DNA from: Candidatus Sigynarchaeota archaeon
GTDB lineage: Archaea; Asgardarchaeota; Lokiarchaeia; Sigyniarchaeales; Sigyniarchaeaceae
Direction of reading: 5' to 3'
DNA length: 36,916 bases
Assembly: GCA_030587505.1 (NCBI GenBank)
Contig: JAUQYY010000036.1
Coordinates: 1-36,916 of the forward strand
In this document: one piece after another, positions 9,698-33,303 of the stretch
Numbering within the stretch: the first letter of the stretch is position 1
Layout: every line of letters begins with the position of its first letter
Program-made: the position numbers and the translations under genes
Notes under the pieces: model-generated
Told to the model about the DNA's origin: nothing
What the model saw: the letters and a program-made list of their open reading frames with translations, nothing else
Databases searched by the model: none

Positions 9698-9801
9698 GGG
9701 CGGATGGTCTAGAACTCTCATCCCTTGGAGAGTGGAAAACTTGGTATGATTCCTGGTTCGGGTCCAGGAGGTCACCAGTTCGAATCTGGTTCCGCCCACC
9801 A
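9698..9801 (+). tRNA. tRNA-Pro(CGG) with a D-loop intron
   Basis: The acceptor GGGCGGA (9698-9704) pairs with TCCGCCC (9791-9797), then A73 and encoded CCA to 9801. The anticodon arm is CCTGG-TTCGGGT-CCAGG with anticodon CGG at 9759-9761. The T-arm is ACCAG-TTCGAAT-CTGGT. The D-loop is interrupted by 27-28 nt; removal gives GTCTAG(C)TTGGTATGAT, the usual D-arm. A TATA-like TTTAAATC at about 9660-9667 lies ~33 nt upstream. Confidence 0.93.
9713..9739 (+). other. tRNA-Pro D-loop intron
   Basis: An internal ACTCTC/GAGAGT stem is flanked by bulges AG|A and AA|C, and a short exon-intron helix TCT/GGA. Cutting after the second bulge base gives a 27-nt intron. A 28-nt alternative ending at 9740 also yields an acceptable D-loop. 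Confidence 0.7.
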
Positions 9802-19711: not shown

Positions 19712-20587
19712 CTATCCGTAATAATTAAACGGAATTCTCCAATCTAAGCTCGGAGTTCTATGCGACAGTTTGAAAATAATAGGAAGCTTTCTTTTGTGTT
19801 CACTCTTTCTCCACATTTCTACAATCTTTTTTACTTTTTCAAGAGGTATGTTGAGTTCCACAGCAATTTCCGCCTCATCCATCCAGTGTTCTAAACCATA
19901 CAATATTAGATCCAAAACATCATACGCCACGCCGATTTCAGATTCATCCGTTTGCCCTTTCCAAAGCCCCGCTGTGGGCACTTTTTGGATTACTTCTCTT
20001 GGGATTCCTAGATATCCCGCCAGCCTACGAACTTGGGTCTTGTACAAGTCGCCTATGGGGAGAATATCCGAGCCCCCGTCACCAAATTTGGTGAAGTTTT
20101 CGGCAGTAATGGTACCCAACCATTAACTGTATCCGACTAATATCTCACTTTTATTCCCAGTGCCCACAACCAAACGGTTAAGCTTATTAGCATAGTAATA
20201 AAGGGTCACCATACGTATGCGTGCCTTAACATTTCCGATTACTCTCGGGGACTCGGAATCGTTTTTTGCATATGTGTTCAGACAAGCATCGAGGATTGGA
20301 GTTATATTTACAATCCTGTATGGAATGCCCAACTGTTCCGCCACTTTTTTCGCATCCTTGACATCGTCAGGATTGCTGTCCTTTTCCGGTAACATTAGGC
20401 CTAGTACACGGTCTGGTCCTATCGCTTTTGCGCAAAGGGTCGCAACAACCGAAGAGTCGATGCCACCACTCAACCCTACTACAGCTCCGGAAAAACCCGC
20501 ATCAACAATCCTTGCACGAATAAATTTGAGGATACGCTTCTCTACGAATTCCGGGTCAATACTAAGTACTTCTGGCGAAAGTTTCAT
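19712..20587 (-). CDS. nadE: NAD synthetase, interrupted by a 33-nt BHB intron
   Basis: Makes NAD from deamido-NAD, ATP and ammonia. Exon 1 (20587-20131) carries the PP-loop GLSGGIDSS, LMLPEKDSNP and VVGTGNKSEILVGY. An in-frame TAA follows at 20123-20125. Exon 2 (20097-19712) resumes with FTKFGDGGSDILPIGDLYKTQVR and ends SLDWRIPFNYYG. Joining the exons gives an uninterrupted 280-residue protein with the conserved GYFTKFGDGG loop. The interrupting 33 nt fold as a bulge-helix-bulge intron (20098-20130). ATG 20587 has GGAGGT 7 nt upstream; the frame also opens at 20623. The divergent neighbour is a nitrilase, a candidate ammonia-supplying partner. Confidence 0.9.
20098..20130 (-). other. BHB intron in the nadE mRNA (33 nt)
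   Basis: The central helix is exon TCGG (20133-20136) with intron CCGA (20100-20103). The two 3-nt bulges are AT|A (20130-20132) and AA|A (20097-20099). The inner stem is CAGT/ACTG, a single bulged T, then AATGGT/ACCATT and a 5-nt loop. Cutting after the second bulge base on each side removes 33 nt and the TAA stop, joining GGAT to ACTTC so that the protein reads VGY-FTKFGDGG. The outer helix is weak (2 bp). Confidence 0.8.
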
Positions 20588-20681
20588 TCCCAAGACCTCC
20601 ATAGGATTAACTCGTATAAACATAAAAGTATATCAAGCTACTATTACTCCAAAAGTATATTAAATTGTTGGAGGAACTTCC

Positions 20682-25396: not shown

Positions 25397-26593
25397 ATGG
25401 GAAAAATCGTTGCGTTAACCGGAAACGAAGCGGTAGCCCACGCCGTAAAACAGTGCAGACCCGACGTAATCGCTATGTACCCCATCACCCCCCAAACACA
25501 AATCGTTGAGGAACTATCACAGTTTCATGCTAACGGCGAGATCGACGCGGAGCTCATCCCCGCAGAATCCGAACACTCAGCAATGTCAGCATGCATCGGC
25601 GCCTCCCTGACCGGAGCCAGAGTATTCACCGCCTCCGCCTCCCAGGGAATCGCGCTGATGTATGAAATGCTATTCGTCGCCTCATCTTTCAGGCTACCAA
25701 TAGTCATGGCCGTATCCAACAGAGCGCTAAACAGCCCCCTAAACATATGGAACGATATGAGCGACACCATGGGCGTCCGAGACTGCGGCTGGATCCAAAT
25801 CTACAACCAAAACGTCCAAGAATCCTACCACACAATCATCCAAGCATTCAAAATAGCAGAAGACAAAGAAGTACAACTACCCGTAATGTCATGCCACGAC
25901 GGCTTCGTCATAAGCCACGCAACCGAAGGCCTACAACTCCTAGAACAAAAAGAAATCGACGGCTTCCTACCCCCTCGAGAAGCGATACACCCAATAGACG
26001 TCAAAAACCCCATCACCGTCGGATGCGTAGGAATACCCGAATACTACCCAGAAATCAAAGTCCAACAAGAAGTAGCCACACAAAACTCCCTAAAAATCAT
26101 CAAAAAAGTCTTCCAAGACTTCAACAGCAGATTCGGCACAAACTACAGCGTTCTCTCCCCCCACGAAATGGACGACGCCGAAGTCGCATTACTAGCCATA
26201 GGCTCACTGGCTGGAACCGCCAAAGAAGCCGTCGACAAAATGAGAAAAGAAGGAAAAAAAGTGGGCATCGTAGCACTCCGCGTCTTCCGCCCCTTCCCCC
26301 ACAAAGAACTATGCGACTCTCTCAAAAACGTAAAAGCCGTCGGCGTCATAGACCGCAACATCAGCTTCGGATCCATGGGTGGAGCACTCAGCATGGAAGT
26401 AAGAGCAGCACTATACGAACTCAAAAACAGACCACACGTAATGAGCTTCCCCACAGGCCTAGGCGGACGAGACACACGACCCGAACACTTCGAAAAAGTC
26501 ACAGAAATCCTCCTCGAAGTCGCCCAAAAAGACAGCATTGAAGAAAACTACAAAGTTGTGGGCTGCAGAGGCCCAGGATGCATAGAAGTATAA
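25397..26593 (+). CDS. porA: 2-oxoacid:ferredoxin oxidoreductase, alpha subunit
   Basis: A 398-residue alpha subunit with the conserved start VALTGNEAVAHAVKQ, MYPITPQTQIVEELS near 30, ESEHSAMSACIGASLTGARVFTASASQG and SNRALNSPLNIWNDMSD. The C-terminal domain II has RVFRPFP and GVIDRNISFGSMGG. The gene is intact, in contrast to its paralogue at 30659-31869, whose equivalent YPITPQT codons are split by an intron. It overlaps the upstream region of the beta gene. Confidence 0.95.
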   Translation: MGKIVALTGNEAVAHAVKQCRPDVIAMYPITPQTQIVEELSQFHANGEIDAELIPAESEHSAMSACIGASLTGARVFTASASQGIALMYEMLFVASSFRLPIVMAVSNRALNSPLNIWNDMSDTMGVRDCGWIQIYNQNVQESYHTIIQAFKIAEDKEVQLPVMSCHDGFVISHATEGLQLLEQKEIDGFLPPREAIHPIDVKNPITVGCVGIPEYYPEIKVQQEVATQNSLKIIKKVFQDFNSRFGTNYSVLSPHEMDDAEVALLAIGSLAGTAKEAVDKMRKEGKKVGIVALRVFRPFPHKELCDSLKNVKAVGVIDRNISFGSMGGALSMEVRAALYELKNRPHVMSFPTGLGGRDTRPEHFEKVTEILLEVAQKDSIEENYKVVGCRGPGCIEV

Positions 26594-29728: not shown

Positions 29729-30655
29729 ATGCCGGCTCAGGTGTATGAGACTCGATGGCATGGTCGCGGCGGTATGGGTACGGTTACGGCGGCCCGGATC
29801 TTAGCTGAGGCTGCGTTCCATGAAGGATTTAGAGGAGTTCAGACGATACCTTTTTTCGGTGCGGAGCGTCGCGGTGCTCCTGTTGCGGCTTATACGCGTT
29901 TTTCGAAGGAGCCTATTCGAATTCACTCTAATGTGTATACTCCTGATATAGTGGTTGTTGTTGATCCCACACTGTTTGAGTCTGGTATGGTTAATATTAC
30001 TGGTGGTTTGAAGGCGGGAGGAATTCTTATTATTAACGCTCCGGAGAACTCTGAGATACTTAGTGAGGTTGGGAAGCTTCCCAAGGGCGCTAAGGTTTTT
30101 ACGGTGGATGCTACTTCTATTTCTATTAAGCTTGGTTTGGAGGTAGCAGGGTTAGCGCTTTCCGCTACGCCTATGCTGGGGGCTTTCGCGAAGGCTACTG
30201 GTTTGATTAGTTTGGACTCTATGTTGGAGGCGCTTGGTGAACGGTTTACGGGTGGGTCTGGTGAGAAGAATCTCAAAGCTGTTGAAATGGCGTATGAGGA
30301 GACGAAGGAATGTATTGTGCCTAATGAGCAGTACATCGATGGTAGTATGCCTGTTTCTAGGCGTGAGCGGGTGTCCCAGTTTCACAGTTGGCGGGATTTG
30401 ACGCCGATTCCCATTTCTAAGCCTTCGAAGGCGAGTATGGGGATTACTGGTGAGTGGCGGGTGTTTAGACCGGTTTATGACCGGGAGACCTGTAATAGGT
30501 GTCTGTCTTGTTGGATGTTTTGTCCTGAATCTGCGATGAGTGTGGATGAGGATGGGTATCCTGTGATTGATTATACTTATTGTAAGGGTTGTGGAGTTTG
30601 TGTGGCTGTGTGTCCTAGAAAGAGTATGCGTTTAGTAAGGGAAAAGGAGGAGTAG
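29729..30655 (+). CDS. 2-oxoacid:ferredoxin oxidoreductase, fused gamma-delta subunit
   Basis: A 308-residue fusion. Residues 1-200 are the gamma domain (TRWHGRGGMGTVTAARILAEAA, IPFFGAERRGAPVAAY). Residues ~245-308 are the delta ferredoxin domain with two 4Fe-4S motifs (CNRCLSCWMFCPESA, CKGCGVCVAVCPRKS). The first oxidoreductase in this window has these as separate overlapping genes. GGAGG precedes the ATG. It ends 3 bp before the alpha gene. Confidence 0.94.
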   Translation: MPAQVYETRWHGRGGMGTVTAARILAEAAFHEGFRGVQTIPFFGAERRGAPVAAYTRFSKEPIRIHSNVYTPDIVVVVDPTLFESGMVNITGGLKAGGILIINAPENSEILSEVGKLPKGAKVFTVDATSISIKLGLEVAGLALSATPMLGAFAKATGLISLDSMLEALGERFTGGSGEKNLKAVEMAYEETKECIVPNEQYIDGSMPVSRRERVSQFHSWRDLTPIPISKPSKASMGITGEWRVFRPVYDRETCNRCLSCWMFCPESAMSVDEDGYPVIDYTYCKGCGVCVAVCPRKSMRLVREKEE

Positions 30656-30658
30656 TGC

Positions 30659-31869
30659 ATGGCGAAGGTTATAATAACGACTGGAAACTATGCTGCGGCG
30701 CACGCGGCTAAACTGGCGAGGCCTGCGGTGATAGCGGCTTATCCAAACTGAGCAAGTTTTCTTGCGCGGGGATAATAACGCCGCAGACGGGTATTGTGGA
30801 GAAATTATCCGATTTTGTTGATAGCGGCGAACTGAATGCTAAGTTCGTGCGTGTCGAGTCTGAACACTCTGCTATGGCCGCTTGCATTGGTGCGTCTCTT
30901 ACTGGCGTAAGAACTTTTACTGCTACTTCGGCCCATGGTTTAGCCCTTATGCACGAGATGGTGCACTGGGCGGCGTCCTCCCGGCTTCCTATTGTTATGG
31001 CTGTGGTTAACCGGGCTCTGGGGCCGCCTTGGAATATTTGGGCGGATCACACTGATTCGATTTCTCAGAGAGACACGGGTTGGGTGCAAATCTACTGCGC
31101 GAATCATCAGGATGCTTTTGATTCGATTATACAGGCATTCAAAATAGCGGAGGACCCTGATGTTCTTCTGCCCGTTATGGTGTGTTACGAAGGGTTTACT
31201 ATCAGTCACACCTCTCAGCCGGTTGAGATTCCCGAACAGGAGGAGGTTGACGCTTTCCTCCCTCCGTATAACCCACCTCATATACGTGTGGACGTGGACC
31301 ATCCTATCACTCACGGGAATCTGCAGAATCCTGACGACTGGTTTTACGAATTTAAGTATCTTATACATTTAGCTCAGGAAAACGCTAAAAGGAAAATCGT
31401 AGAGGTCGCTTCTGAGTTTGAAAAGAGGTTCGGTAGGTATCATGGTGCCTTGGTAGAGGAGTATAGGTGCGAAGATGCGGATGCTGTCCTTTTCTGTATG
31501 GGCTCTCTTGCCGATCAGGCTATGGTTGCTGTGGATGAGTTAAGAGAGGAGGGCTACAGAGCAGGCTCGGTTAAGTTGAGAGCATTCAGGCCCTTCCCTG
31601 AGGAAGAGATATGTAGAATTGCCCGCCGAGTCAAGGCCATCGCCGTTATAGATAGAAATCTTTCCGCTGGGAAAGGCGGCGCGTCGGCTTCTGAAATTAA
31701 AGCTGCCCTGTACACCGAAGAGAAACGTCCTCCGGTACTAGAATTCATAGCCGGTCTAGGGGGCCGGGATGTTACGGTACAAGACCAGAAGGATGCGCTG
31801 AAAAAAGCCTTTGAAGTCATTGAGACCGGAGAAATCGTAAAAGAGATAGGATGGATCGGCAGAAAATAG
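30659..31869 (+). CDS. porA: Second 2-oxoacid:ferredoxin oxidoreductase, alpha subunit, interrupted by a 29-nt BHB intron
   Basis: Exon 1 (30659-30746) reads MAKVIITTGNYAAAHAAK and continues to VIAAYP. The frame then hits TGA at 30749. Exon 2 (30776-31869) continues as ITPQTGIVEKLSDFV and carries ESEHSAMAACIGASLTG, NRALGPPWNIW, RAFRPFP and AVIDRNLS. Splicing gives a full-length 393-residue protein in which the AYPITPQTG motif is perfect. AAGGAGGAG lies before ATG 30659. The interrupting 29 nt is not a multiple of three and folds as a bulge-helix-bulge (30747-30775). Initiation downstream would lose the conserved N-terminus. Confidence 0.92.
30747..30775 (+). other. BHB intron in the second porA mRNA (29 nt)
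   Basis: The central helix is ATCC (30741-30744) with GGAT (30770-30773). The bulges are AA|A (30745-30747) and AA|T (30774-30776). The inner helix is CTG-A-GCAAG with CTTGC-G-CGG, one A-G mismatch and a TTTT loop. The outer helix is GCGGC-TT (30734-30740) with AA-C-GCCGC (30777-30784), one bulged C. Cutting after the second bulge base on both sides removes 29 nt and restores TAT-CCA-ATA-ACG (Y-P-I-T). Confidence 0.88.
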
Positions 31870-32016: not shown

Positions 32017-33303
32017 TTAGAGTATTCTGGTGCGGCCTAGTTCTTCTCCTTCTTCGCTGACCTTCAGTAGTCCGAATTGTACAAACTTGATTTTCTCCTT
32101 CTTCGCTGAAGTGTAGAATGTTATTTTCCTATTTTTAAAATCCACCCTTTTTATTATTCCTATGCCACTGTGTTCATTGTTCTGGTCCTGGAATGCGACT
32201 AGGAGGTTTTCAAAATCCTTTTTTTGGGCGATATACACTTCGAGTTTTCTTAAGCGTTTCTCTAAGTACTTGGTTGTCTCTCTTGTCATCTCAACCTCCT
32301 CGTCTGGTAGTATGACGTACAGCAGATCTGGAGATTCCTCGGCATAAACCGGGGAACACCCTAAAACCTGTTTTATTTCTTGTATTTTCTCTGGGTCTGG
32401 TTGAGAGCCGGAGCCTAGTAGAGTGTATCTTAATCCAATCTGTTCAAAGCCTAGAGTTATTTCTCGGCCGCCCTCAAGACTCTTTCGGTACAGGATTTCC
32501 CTGAGAAACTTCCTGTTCTCTCTACTTCTTTTGTATGTTTCCGGGGCGGGGAGCCGTATAATTCTGATGGAGGAGTTCTCAAAGGGGGCTAATAGGTGTT
32601 CTATTTCATTTTTCCTTTGGAGTGCAATCAGAATTCTGGGCTGTAGCATTAAAATTACGGTTGTCTTAAGCTCTCTTGCGCCTCTTCCATACACCCATCC
32701 AGACGTGTCTACGAGAACTATTTCCGCACTATTACTTAGCGCTTTTTTAACCATCGCCTCCATTCCCGCCACGGTTCTGTGCATAACCCGGTAGGGCGTA
32801 TTCGAACCGATAAAGTAGGCTCCTTTTACCTTTATTTCGGACAGTTTAGAAACCGTTTTTTCCATAACTCCCATACTGATGAAACACGGTTGACCAATGC
32901 TACTCTGTCCGACATCTGCGTCGACAATCGCAACCTTGAAGCCTTTTTTAAAGGCGGTGTTTGCTAGAAGAGTTGTTAATGATGTTTTACCAGTGTCCAC
33001 ATCTCCCAGTATGGGTATTATTGCTGGCGCTTCTAACTTGTTGAAAATATTTGCGACGCTTTTCCACTCTTTAGGAAAAGGAGTGTTCAAGGGTTCAATT
33101 GCTTCTTCATTGTCCATATTAACCTCAAGTGTCGCTTCTGAAACGGTTTGAATCGGAAGTGCTTTACCCCTCGCTATAACGATGCTCTCCTCTCTTCCCA
33201 GAGTGTTTCCAAGTACTGAAATCTCTCCCTCAATAATCCTCATTTTTGCTGGACCTTTTACGAGAAACGTTTGATTTGAACCCGTTTTAATTGTTTTTTT
33301 CAA
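32017..33303 (-). CDS. Clp1/Grc3-type polynucleotide 5'-hydroxyl kinase
   Basis: A 428-residue P-loop RNA kinase of the Clp1/Grc3/Nol9 family (COG1341). An N-terminal beta domain is followed by Walker A GDVDTGKTS near 99, then DADVGQSSIGQP near 128 and VDTSGWVYG near 200; a C-terminal beta domain ends the protein. Family members phosphorylate RNA 5'-OH ends, and eukaryotic relatives act in tRNA splicing and rRNA processing. The TTG start overlaps the stop of the upstream RNase H-fold gene (TTGA), so the two are co-translated. Confidence 0.92.
   Translation of the reverse strand: MKKTIKTGSNQTFLVKGPAKMRIIEGEISVLGNTLGREESIVIARGKALPIQTVSEATLEVNMDNEEAIEPLNTPFPKEWKSVANIFNKLEAPAIIPILGDVDTGKTSLTTLLANTAFKKGFKVAIVDADVGQSSIGQPCFISMGVMEKTVSKLSEIKVKGAYFIGSNTPYRVMHRTVAGMEAMVKKALSNSAEIVLVDTSGWVYGRGARELKTTVILMLQPRILIALQRKNEIEHLLAPFENSSIRIIRLPAPETYKRSRENRKFLREILYRKSLEGGREITLGFEQIGLRYTLLGSGSQPDPEKIQEIKQVLGCSPVYAEESPDLLYVILPDEEVEMTRETTKYLEKRLRKLEVYIAQKKDFENLLVAFQDQNNEHSGIGIIKRVDFKNRKITFYTSAKKEKIKFVQFGLLKVSEEGEELGRTRIL

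Follow-up and report, generated by a model that had tools for sequence, protein, structure and literature searches.

A predicted bulge-helix-bulge intron in the porA gene of an Asgard archaeon, with similar inserts in other conserved genes

The closest described counterpart of the introns discussed here lies in the archaeal cbf5 gene. In 2009 this was the sole archaeal gene with confirmed pre-mRNA splicing, with putative introns predicted in other genes (PMC2738675). By 2020 the bulge-helix-bulge (BHB) intron of cbf5 was the one reported, besides a UTR case, HVO_1309, presented in that paper itself (PMC7714728). A second relevant system is the tRNA genes of three Freyarchaeia and Atabeyarchaeia genomes, 92-95% of which carry introns, many at non-canonical positions (PMC11291895). 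The same work finds por genes expressed in all three genomes, and wetland-soil metatranscriptomes are described there and in PMC12918454. In the open-access literature that we searched (titles and the starts of abstracts), no report was found of BHB introns in porA, nadE, HD-domain or rtcB genes, or in Asgard mRNAs.

The stretch of DNA analysed here, which we call the window, is 36,916 nucleotides long and is the entire contig C281 of G000, an archaeal metagenome-assembled genome in 429 contigs (91% complete, 8% contaminated). Its forward strand carries porA, the gene for the alpha subunit of a 2-oxoacid:ferredoxin oxidoreductase, downstream of a gene for a POR gamma/delta-like subunit on the same strand (29729-30655; POR and Fer4 in Pfam). 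The first exon of porA, at 30659-30746, starts with an ATG at 30659 and encodes an N-terminus that is conserved in four related proteins (L033-L036). Left unspliced, the gene is open for these 88 nt and then meets a TGA and a frameshift. Excision of the 29 nt at 30747-30775 restores the motif AYP|ITPQT (AYPITPQT) and the frame exactly, giving one protein of 393 aa, MAKVIITTGNYAAAHAAKLARPAVIAAYP|ITPQTGIVEKL..., in which exon 2 (30776-31869) encodes the rest of POR_N and PFOR_II. The restored protein matches the Pfam POR_N profile over positions 1-229 with 253.9 bits, and exon 2 alone over positions 23-229 with 217.3 bits. A plain ORF call reports a truncated PorA beginning at GTG 30796. An internal control is available 5 kb upstream, where an intron-less porA paralogue, MYPITPQTQIVEEL, on the forward strand at 25397-26593 carries the same motif uninterrupted (MYPITPQT). 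Three adjacent 29-nt excisions yield an identical porA product and mRNA, and therefore the cut is not fixed by the sequence alone; the BHB fold picks one of the three. As a separate observation, a gene for a CLP1-type polynucleotide kinase (32017-33303, reverse strand) adjoins porA downstream on the opposite strand. The eukaryotic relative of this kinase is involved in pre-tRNA splicing.

The fold of the porA element, all on the forward strand, can be followed from the outside in. The outer helix has its 5′ strand GCGGC in the exon at 30734-30738, followed by UU (30739-30740); its 3′ strand, AA-C-GCCGC, lies in the second exon at 30777-30784, where GCCGC (30780-30784) pairs with 30734-30738 and the UU/AA pairs extend the helix around a bulged C. 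The central 4-bp helix is formed by the exonic AUCC at 30741-30744 and the intronic GGAU at 30770-30773. On either side of it are the 5′ bulge AA|A (30745-30747, predicted cut after 30746) and the 3′ bulge AA|U (30774-30776, predicted cut after 30775). The inner hairpin, CUG-A-GCAAG / UUUU / CUUGC-G-CGG, occupies 30748-30769, with 30748-30756 paired to 30761-30769. The element has what defines a BHB, namely a central helix of 4 bp, a 3-nt bulge on each of its two strands, and flanking helices. An earlier note, made from the letters and their open reading frames alone, had described this anatomy (a central ATCC/GGAT, 3-nt bulges, an inner hairpin and an outer GCGGC/GCCGC), and every helix and bulge was present; its further claim, that cutting after the second base of each bulge restores motif and frame, held to the nucleotide.

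The 55-nt porA element folds at -24.0 kcal/mol (z = -4.98), and none of 200 dinucleotide shuffles was as stable. For its 71-nt context z is -2.32, with 5 of 200 shuffles as stable. An equal BHB at the porA junction appeared in 0 of 2000 shuffles of the 29 nt; the count was likewise 0 of 2000 shuffled introns in each of the five cases tested (porA, nadE, the HD-domain gene twice, and cbf5). Against the textbook reading, the unconstrained minimum-energy fold has a 6-bp central helix (UUAUCC/GGAUAA) and a 4-nt bulge, and in the window copy the textbook 4-bp BHB lies 3.1 kcal/mol above this minimum. Read by eye, the alignment shows the 6-bp alternative disrupted in both L035 and L036. The 4-bp helix is paired in all five sequences and is the form conserved among relatives.

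We examined porA in G000 and in four genomes of the family f17 (Jordarchaeia/Freyarchaeia, Asgard). An insert interrupts the gene at the same nucleotide in all five, with lengths of 29 nt (G000), 28 nt (G119) and 33 nt (G092, G106 and G113); homologous introns are found in L033-L036, L005 and L113. Every insert contains an in-frame stop, TGA or TAA, and those of 28 and 29 nt, in two genomes, also shift the frame. The inner hairpin varies in sequence from genome to genome yet remains paired. Across the five sequences and the entire structure 98% of cells are paired, compared with 40-54% when the partners are slid by 1-3 columns. Covariation is weak evidence on so few sequences: one pair changes on both sides, and shuffling gives no support, with 240 of 500 shuffles reaching the score. 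The exons have dN of 0.050-0.076 and pS of 0.60-0.79 in nine of the ten pairs (the close pair L035/L036 was left out), which shows a functional gene under strong purifying selection with synonymous sites near saturation. The insert is absent from all four genomes of the order's other family (f10/g23), whose open frames of 400-426 aa have no stops; the intron-less allele, TATCCGATAAC, was read in L037 and L038. Tested as a conserved and functional host gene for which intron-less alleles exist, porA was positive. Two PorA matches flagged for stops, in G109 and G087, were rejected as candidates, the stop being in each case the gene's own terminal codon.

The lineage of the contig needs some comment. 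The porA exon 2 product is 87-89% identical to the Jordarchaeia/Freyarchaeota proteins L033 (Candidatus Jordarchaeum madagascariense EB_bin_7), L034 (Freyarchaeota SQRJ_82), L035 (RPF2) and L036 (QZM_A3), and 68-69% identical to those of the other family of the same order (f10/g23). The stated kinship of G000 (f1/g1) conflicts with these best PorA relatives, which are Jordarchaeia. In a Cbf5 tree the G000 protein falls inside the f17 clade with a support of 100/100, and the NadE, HD-domain and interrupted RtcB proteins of G000 likewise go with Jordarchaeia f17. By gene affinity we take the contig to be from Jordarchaeia/Freyarchaeia, with the exact host uncertain; G000 may be a mislabelled or mixed bin.

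The genes needed for splicing are present. Two EndA-family genes were found in seven of nine genomes, including G000, and one in each of the other two. RtcB is present in eight of the nine, G000 having one match. On our reading of the sequences, one type keeps the Tyr/His/Lys positions of EndA and the other type lacks the His. This fits an enzyme that is probably heteromeric, with one catalytic and one structural subunit. According to PMC2738675, unconventional BHBs are cut by hetero-oligomeric EndA. ARAGORN reported just 5 tRNA genes in 60 of 79 G119 loci (about 1.18 Mb), as expected if many tRNA genes are interrupted. One further tRNA observation concerns the window, where an Rfam scan at gathering scores gave a single tRNA, a tRNA-Pro(CGG) at 9730-9801 (forward strand, anticodon at position 30); its score is low, 29.4 bits, and it is possibly odd or interrupted.

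We consider it very likely that the 29 nt of porA are a BHB intron of the pre-mRNA, cut by EndA and joined by RtcB. Under this reading EndA would cut the transcript after the second base of both 3-nt bulges, an RtcB-type ligase would join nucleotide 30746 to 30776, and the joined mRNA would encode full-length PorA. The analysis shows the anatomy of the porA element, its conservation with a changing hairpin, a functional gene, an allele without the intron in the order's other family, and genes for EndA and RtcB. That the transcript is cut and joined, and the joined mRNA translated, is inferred, and there are no RNA data. The earlier note had likewise inferred that the tRNA machinery splices porA mRNA; comparative data support this, and the actual cutting and joining remain an inference without RNA evidence. 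Its mention of cbf5 as the known BHB case in mRNA agrees with PMC2738675 and PMC7714728. It also suggested a search for intron-less alleles, which were found in the order's other family (L037 and L038 read), and a comparison of the spliced product with PorA homologues, which the restored POR_N match and the N-terminus shared with L033-L036 bear out. One of the two outcomes that it named as refuting, an assembly error, is contradicted by inserts at one site in five genomes.

A second predicted intron in the window, which the earlier note does not mention, lies on the reverse strand, in the NAD synthase gene nadE. Exon 1 (20131-20623, start codon uncertain) matches positions 3-137 of Pfam PF02540 and exon 2 (19712-20097) positions 138-242; between them is a BHB intron of 33 nt, 20130-20098, at GY|FTKFGDGG, with predicted cuts before 20130 and after 20098. 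The joined protein matches PF02540 over positions 3-242 with 305.5 bits. Four pairs make up the central helix, the outer one is weak, and the minimum fold is 2.6 kcal/mol more stable than the BHB. The insert was also found in G119 and G092. It is absent in G106 and G113, which have open frames of 286 and 288 with GYFTKFGDG intact, and in the outgroup copies L160 and L163.

An HD-domain gene provides a third case, with inserts of 31 nt in G119 and 29 nt in G000 at HD(I/V)GHG|PFSHG. The hairpins of the two copies differ, and in both the BHB is the minimum fold (the constrained fold equals the minimum). G092, whose sequence was read, is without the insert, and the frame is open over 420 aa in G106 and G113. 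In porA, nadE, the HD-domain gene and cbf5 alike, cuts after the second bulge base on each side restore frame and motif exactly.

Another insert lies in cbf5. In all nine Jordarchaeia genomes looked at, f10 included, 29-35 nt separate the first base of the Asp codon in GTLD|PKVTG from the other two, and a Thermogladius genome (order Desulfurococcales) has 24 nt inserted at that very nucleotide. Inserts at this nucleotide were seen in L257-L262, L299-L301, L267 and L298. All 11 copies have a complete central 4-bp helix; G117, G099 and Thermogladius lack the first pair of the outer helix. Another Asgard genome, G183 (L298), has a 17-nt insert at the site with a weak BHB fold (-8.2 compared with -12.7 kcal/mol). 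The shared position links the Asgard introns to cbf5, the archaeal mRNA intron called confirmed in PMC2738675. A Cbf5 tree gives three changes for intron presence, of which strongly supported branches force two; many branches are weak, and the tree does not settle a single origin. Moreover, its 30 intron-less rows are the best-scoring ones, hence biased towards intact genes. We limited the evidence for cbf5 introns to stops, frame changes or short open frames. The splitting of Cbf5 into two Pfam pieces in many Asgard genomes was rejected as evidence of introns; we infer that archaeal Cbf5 probably lacks part of the bacterial profile.

A further and irregular case is rtcB, which encodes the tRNA-splicing ligase itself. 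In all five genomes of the group (L192-L196: G000, G119, G106, G113 and G092, respectively) an insert of 30 nt with a TGA or TAA stop interrupts LPD|AHQGYG; it is absent from the three f10 genomes with an RtcB match. The minimum fold has 8 nt on the 3′ bulge side in all five. The central helix is 4 bp in G106, G113 and G092, and G106 has an internal loop in place of the 5′ bulge. In G000 and G119 the helix is 3 bp and the minimum fold puts the required cut at the bulge edge; the right product comes only from a 4-bp register, at a cost of 2.5 kcal/mol. The exons pair with each other (CCGUAaCCYUG/CARGGyUACGG), and one such pair changes from CUG/CAG in three genomes to UUG/CAA in two, both changes being synonymous. 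Covariation is suggestive by shuffling (39 of 500 shuffles reach the score). The interrupted gene is the sole RtcB match in G000, G106, G113 and G119, and G092 has two partial matches. In a partial survey of 227 Asgard genomes, RtcB in-frame stops occurred only in G000, G119, G106, G113 and G146, that of G092 coming from a separate search. The stop of G146 was set aside, as there is no insert at it. In the absence of RNA data, the apparent interruption of rtcB may be a BHB intron in relaxed form.

How many such introns a genome contains was estimated by scanning. A strict BHB scan of the window and 1,499,542 bases of G119 (about 36% of some 4.2 Mb) found 136 BHB-like sites, of which 16 join open frames at the predicted cut, as against 8-9 at each of four shifted cuts; without a coding filter, about half of the 16 are noise. 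With coding signal demanded on both sides there remain five sites (porA twice, nadE twice, and cbf5), compared with one over the four shifted-cut controls together. The strict scan misses the HD-domain gene, which is below the coding threshold (0.5 against 1), and rtcB, which is non-canonical with its relaxed 3′ bulge. This leaves a small set in the part scanned, namely porA, nadE, the HD-domain gene, cbf5 and rtcB. Part of the G119 DNA was chosen for carrying porA, rtcB or cbf5, so the 10-15 introns per genome given by straight extrapolation is too high. Our guess, and it is no more than that, is 5-15 mRNA introns per genome. Loose scans gave no excess: 27 canonical frame-joining sites compared with 40, 20, 13 and 5 for four decoy geometries in 364 kb of G119, and 22 compared with 80, 24, 12 and 3 in the window and 704 kb of G119. 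The translations of 14 loose-scan candidates, inspected by eye, mostly look like the 3′ end of a gene joined to the beginning of its neighbour, and these were rejected. Signal could be told from noise only when the strict scan was combined with coding support and shifted cuts. Separately, in PF04055 (radical SAM) matches from five genomes we observed at least one in-frame stop, a TAA at G106:C52:33668-34177; this is a possible intron or pseudogene.

Three rival explanations have some points in their favour, and we judge each of them very unlikely. The first holds that nothing is spliced: porA has become a pseudogene, or the insert arose as an error of sequencing or assembly. A frameshift and a stop in a fragmented genome with 8% contamination would fit this, and porA could be replaced in function by its intact paralogue at 25397-26593. 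However, the insert sits at one nucleotide in five genomes, four of them represented by named public records of separate isolates; purifying selection on the exons is strong, and the frame is exactly restored every time.

A second rival, to which we also give little weight, is that translation itself copes with the insert, the ribosome either hopping across or reading through by programmed bypassing, frameshifting or stop recoding. A hairpin with a stop right after the take-off site speaks for it, PMC9723677 deals with stop recoding in this lineage, and a stop is all that blocks reading in the 33-nt porA inserts (three genomes) and the 30-nt rtcB inserts (all five). On the other hand, the 28- and 29-nt porA inserts of two genomes leave a different frame. 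The porA stop is TGA or TAA, and TAA is not known to serve as a Sec or Pyl codon. For hopping, rtcB lacks matching take-off and landing codons (GAT or GAC as against GAA), and neither the BHB geometry nor the paired rtcB exon sequences would be explained. Finally, the cbf5 insert shares its nucleotide with Thermogladius, of the Desulfurococcales, an order with reported cbf5 splicing (PMC2738675).

The third, again very improbable, is that the BHB is cut without rejoining, as processing or decay, and that exon 2 is translated alone from GTG 30796. Ligation is not obligatory for EndA substrates, this GTG opens a frame of 357 aa within exon 2, and BHB processing has been reported in the 5′ UTR of a Haloferax mRNA (PMC7714728). 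However, a product of exon 2 only would be missing the N-terminal stretch of POR_N, in which AYP and ITPQT lie, exon 1 retains its ATG and conserved N-terminus, and the nadE, rtcB and cbf5 introns likewise split conserved motifs. A group I or II self-splicing intron can be dismissed, as the porA inserts are 28-33 nt, a catalytic core needs hundreds of nucleotides, and the Rfam scan of the window at gathering scores gave no group I or II match.

Returning to splicing by EndA and RtcB, a bolder reading is that Jordarchaeia run a small pre-mRNA splicing programme of at least five genes (porA, nadE, HD-domain, cbf5 and rtcB), with introns of 28-35 nt in conserved motifs. As rtcB, in four of the five genomes the sole RtcB match, would itself be interrupted, new ligase would then need pre-existing ligase, in a self-dependent and possibly autoregulatory loop. 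The evidence leans only slightly towards this reading, and our confidence in it is lowered by the irregular rtcB fold of G000 and G119. Persistence of the introns may follow from their placement: each of the five genes is interrupted within a strongly conserved motif, and we infer that an imprecise loss there would destroy the enzyme. If the predictions are true, mRNAs are among the substrates of the protein-based tRNA-splicing pathway in at least two phyla, one of them the Asgard archaea, relatives of eukaryotes, and such introns come and go between related lineages, as the intron-less alleles indicate. Gene callers would then misread interrupted genes, the shortened PorA called from GTG 30796 being an example, and we infer that production of the splicing ligase would depend on the ligase itself.

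These introns can be compared with three known systems. The tRNA introns of Freyarchaeia and Atabeyarchaeia (PMC11291895) come from an identical or closely related lineage that makes heavy use of the splicing machinery. They differ in lying in tRNA genes; the passages of that paper on introns, mRNA and splicing mention no mRNA introns, and the term 'protein-coding' is absent from the paper. BHB processing of archaeal pre-rRNA has the same EndA/RtcB chemistry, but there the excised piece is useful, whereas in porA it is the exons. The nearest likeness is with the cbf5 intron of Crenarchaeota (Watanabe 2002; Yokobori 2009, PMC2738675), also a short BHB intron in a conserved protein gene, with predicted cuts between the second and third bulge residues and a lineage-specific presence and absence. 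Indeed, the Jordarchaeia cbf5 intron is at the same nucleotide (GTLDPKVTG) as that of the Thermogladius genome. Crenarchaeal cbf5 splicing has cDNA support, which the Asgard introns are without. Most of the newly predicted crenarchaeal cbf5 BHBs are unconventional (PMC2738675), whereas a textbook 3-4-3 element can be drawn for porA, the HD-domain gene and most of the cbf5 copies in Jordarchaeia. The Asgard set also lies in other genes (porA, nadE, HD-domain and rtcB) and in another phylum. It is these host genes and the phylum that are new here; the chemistry is already known.
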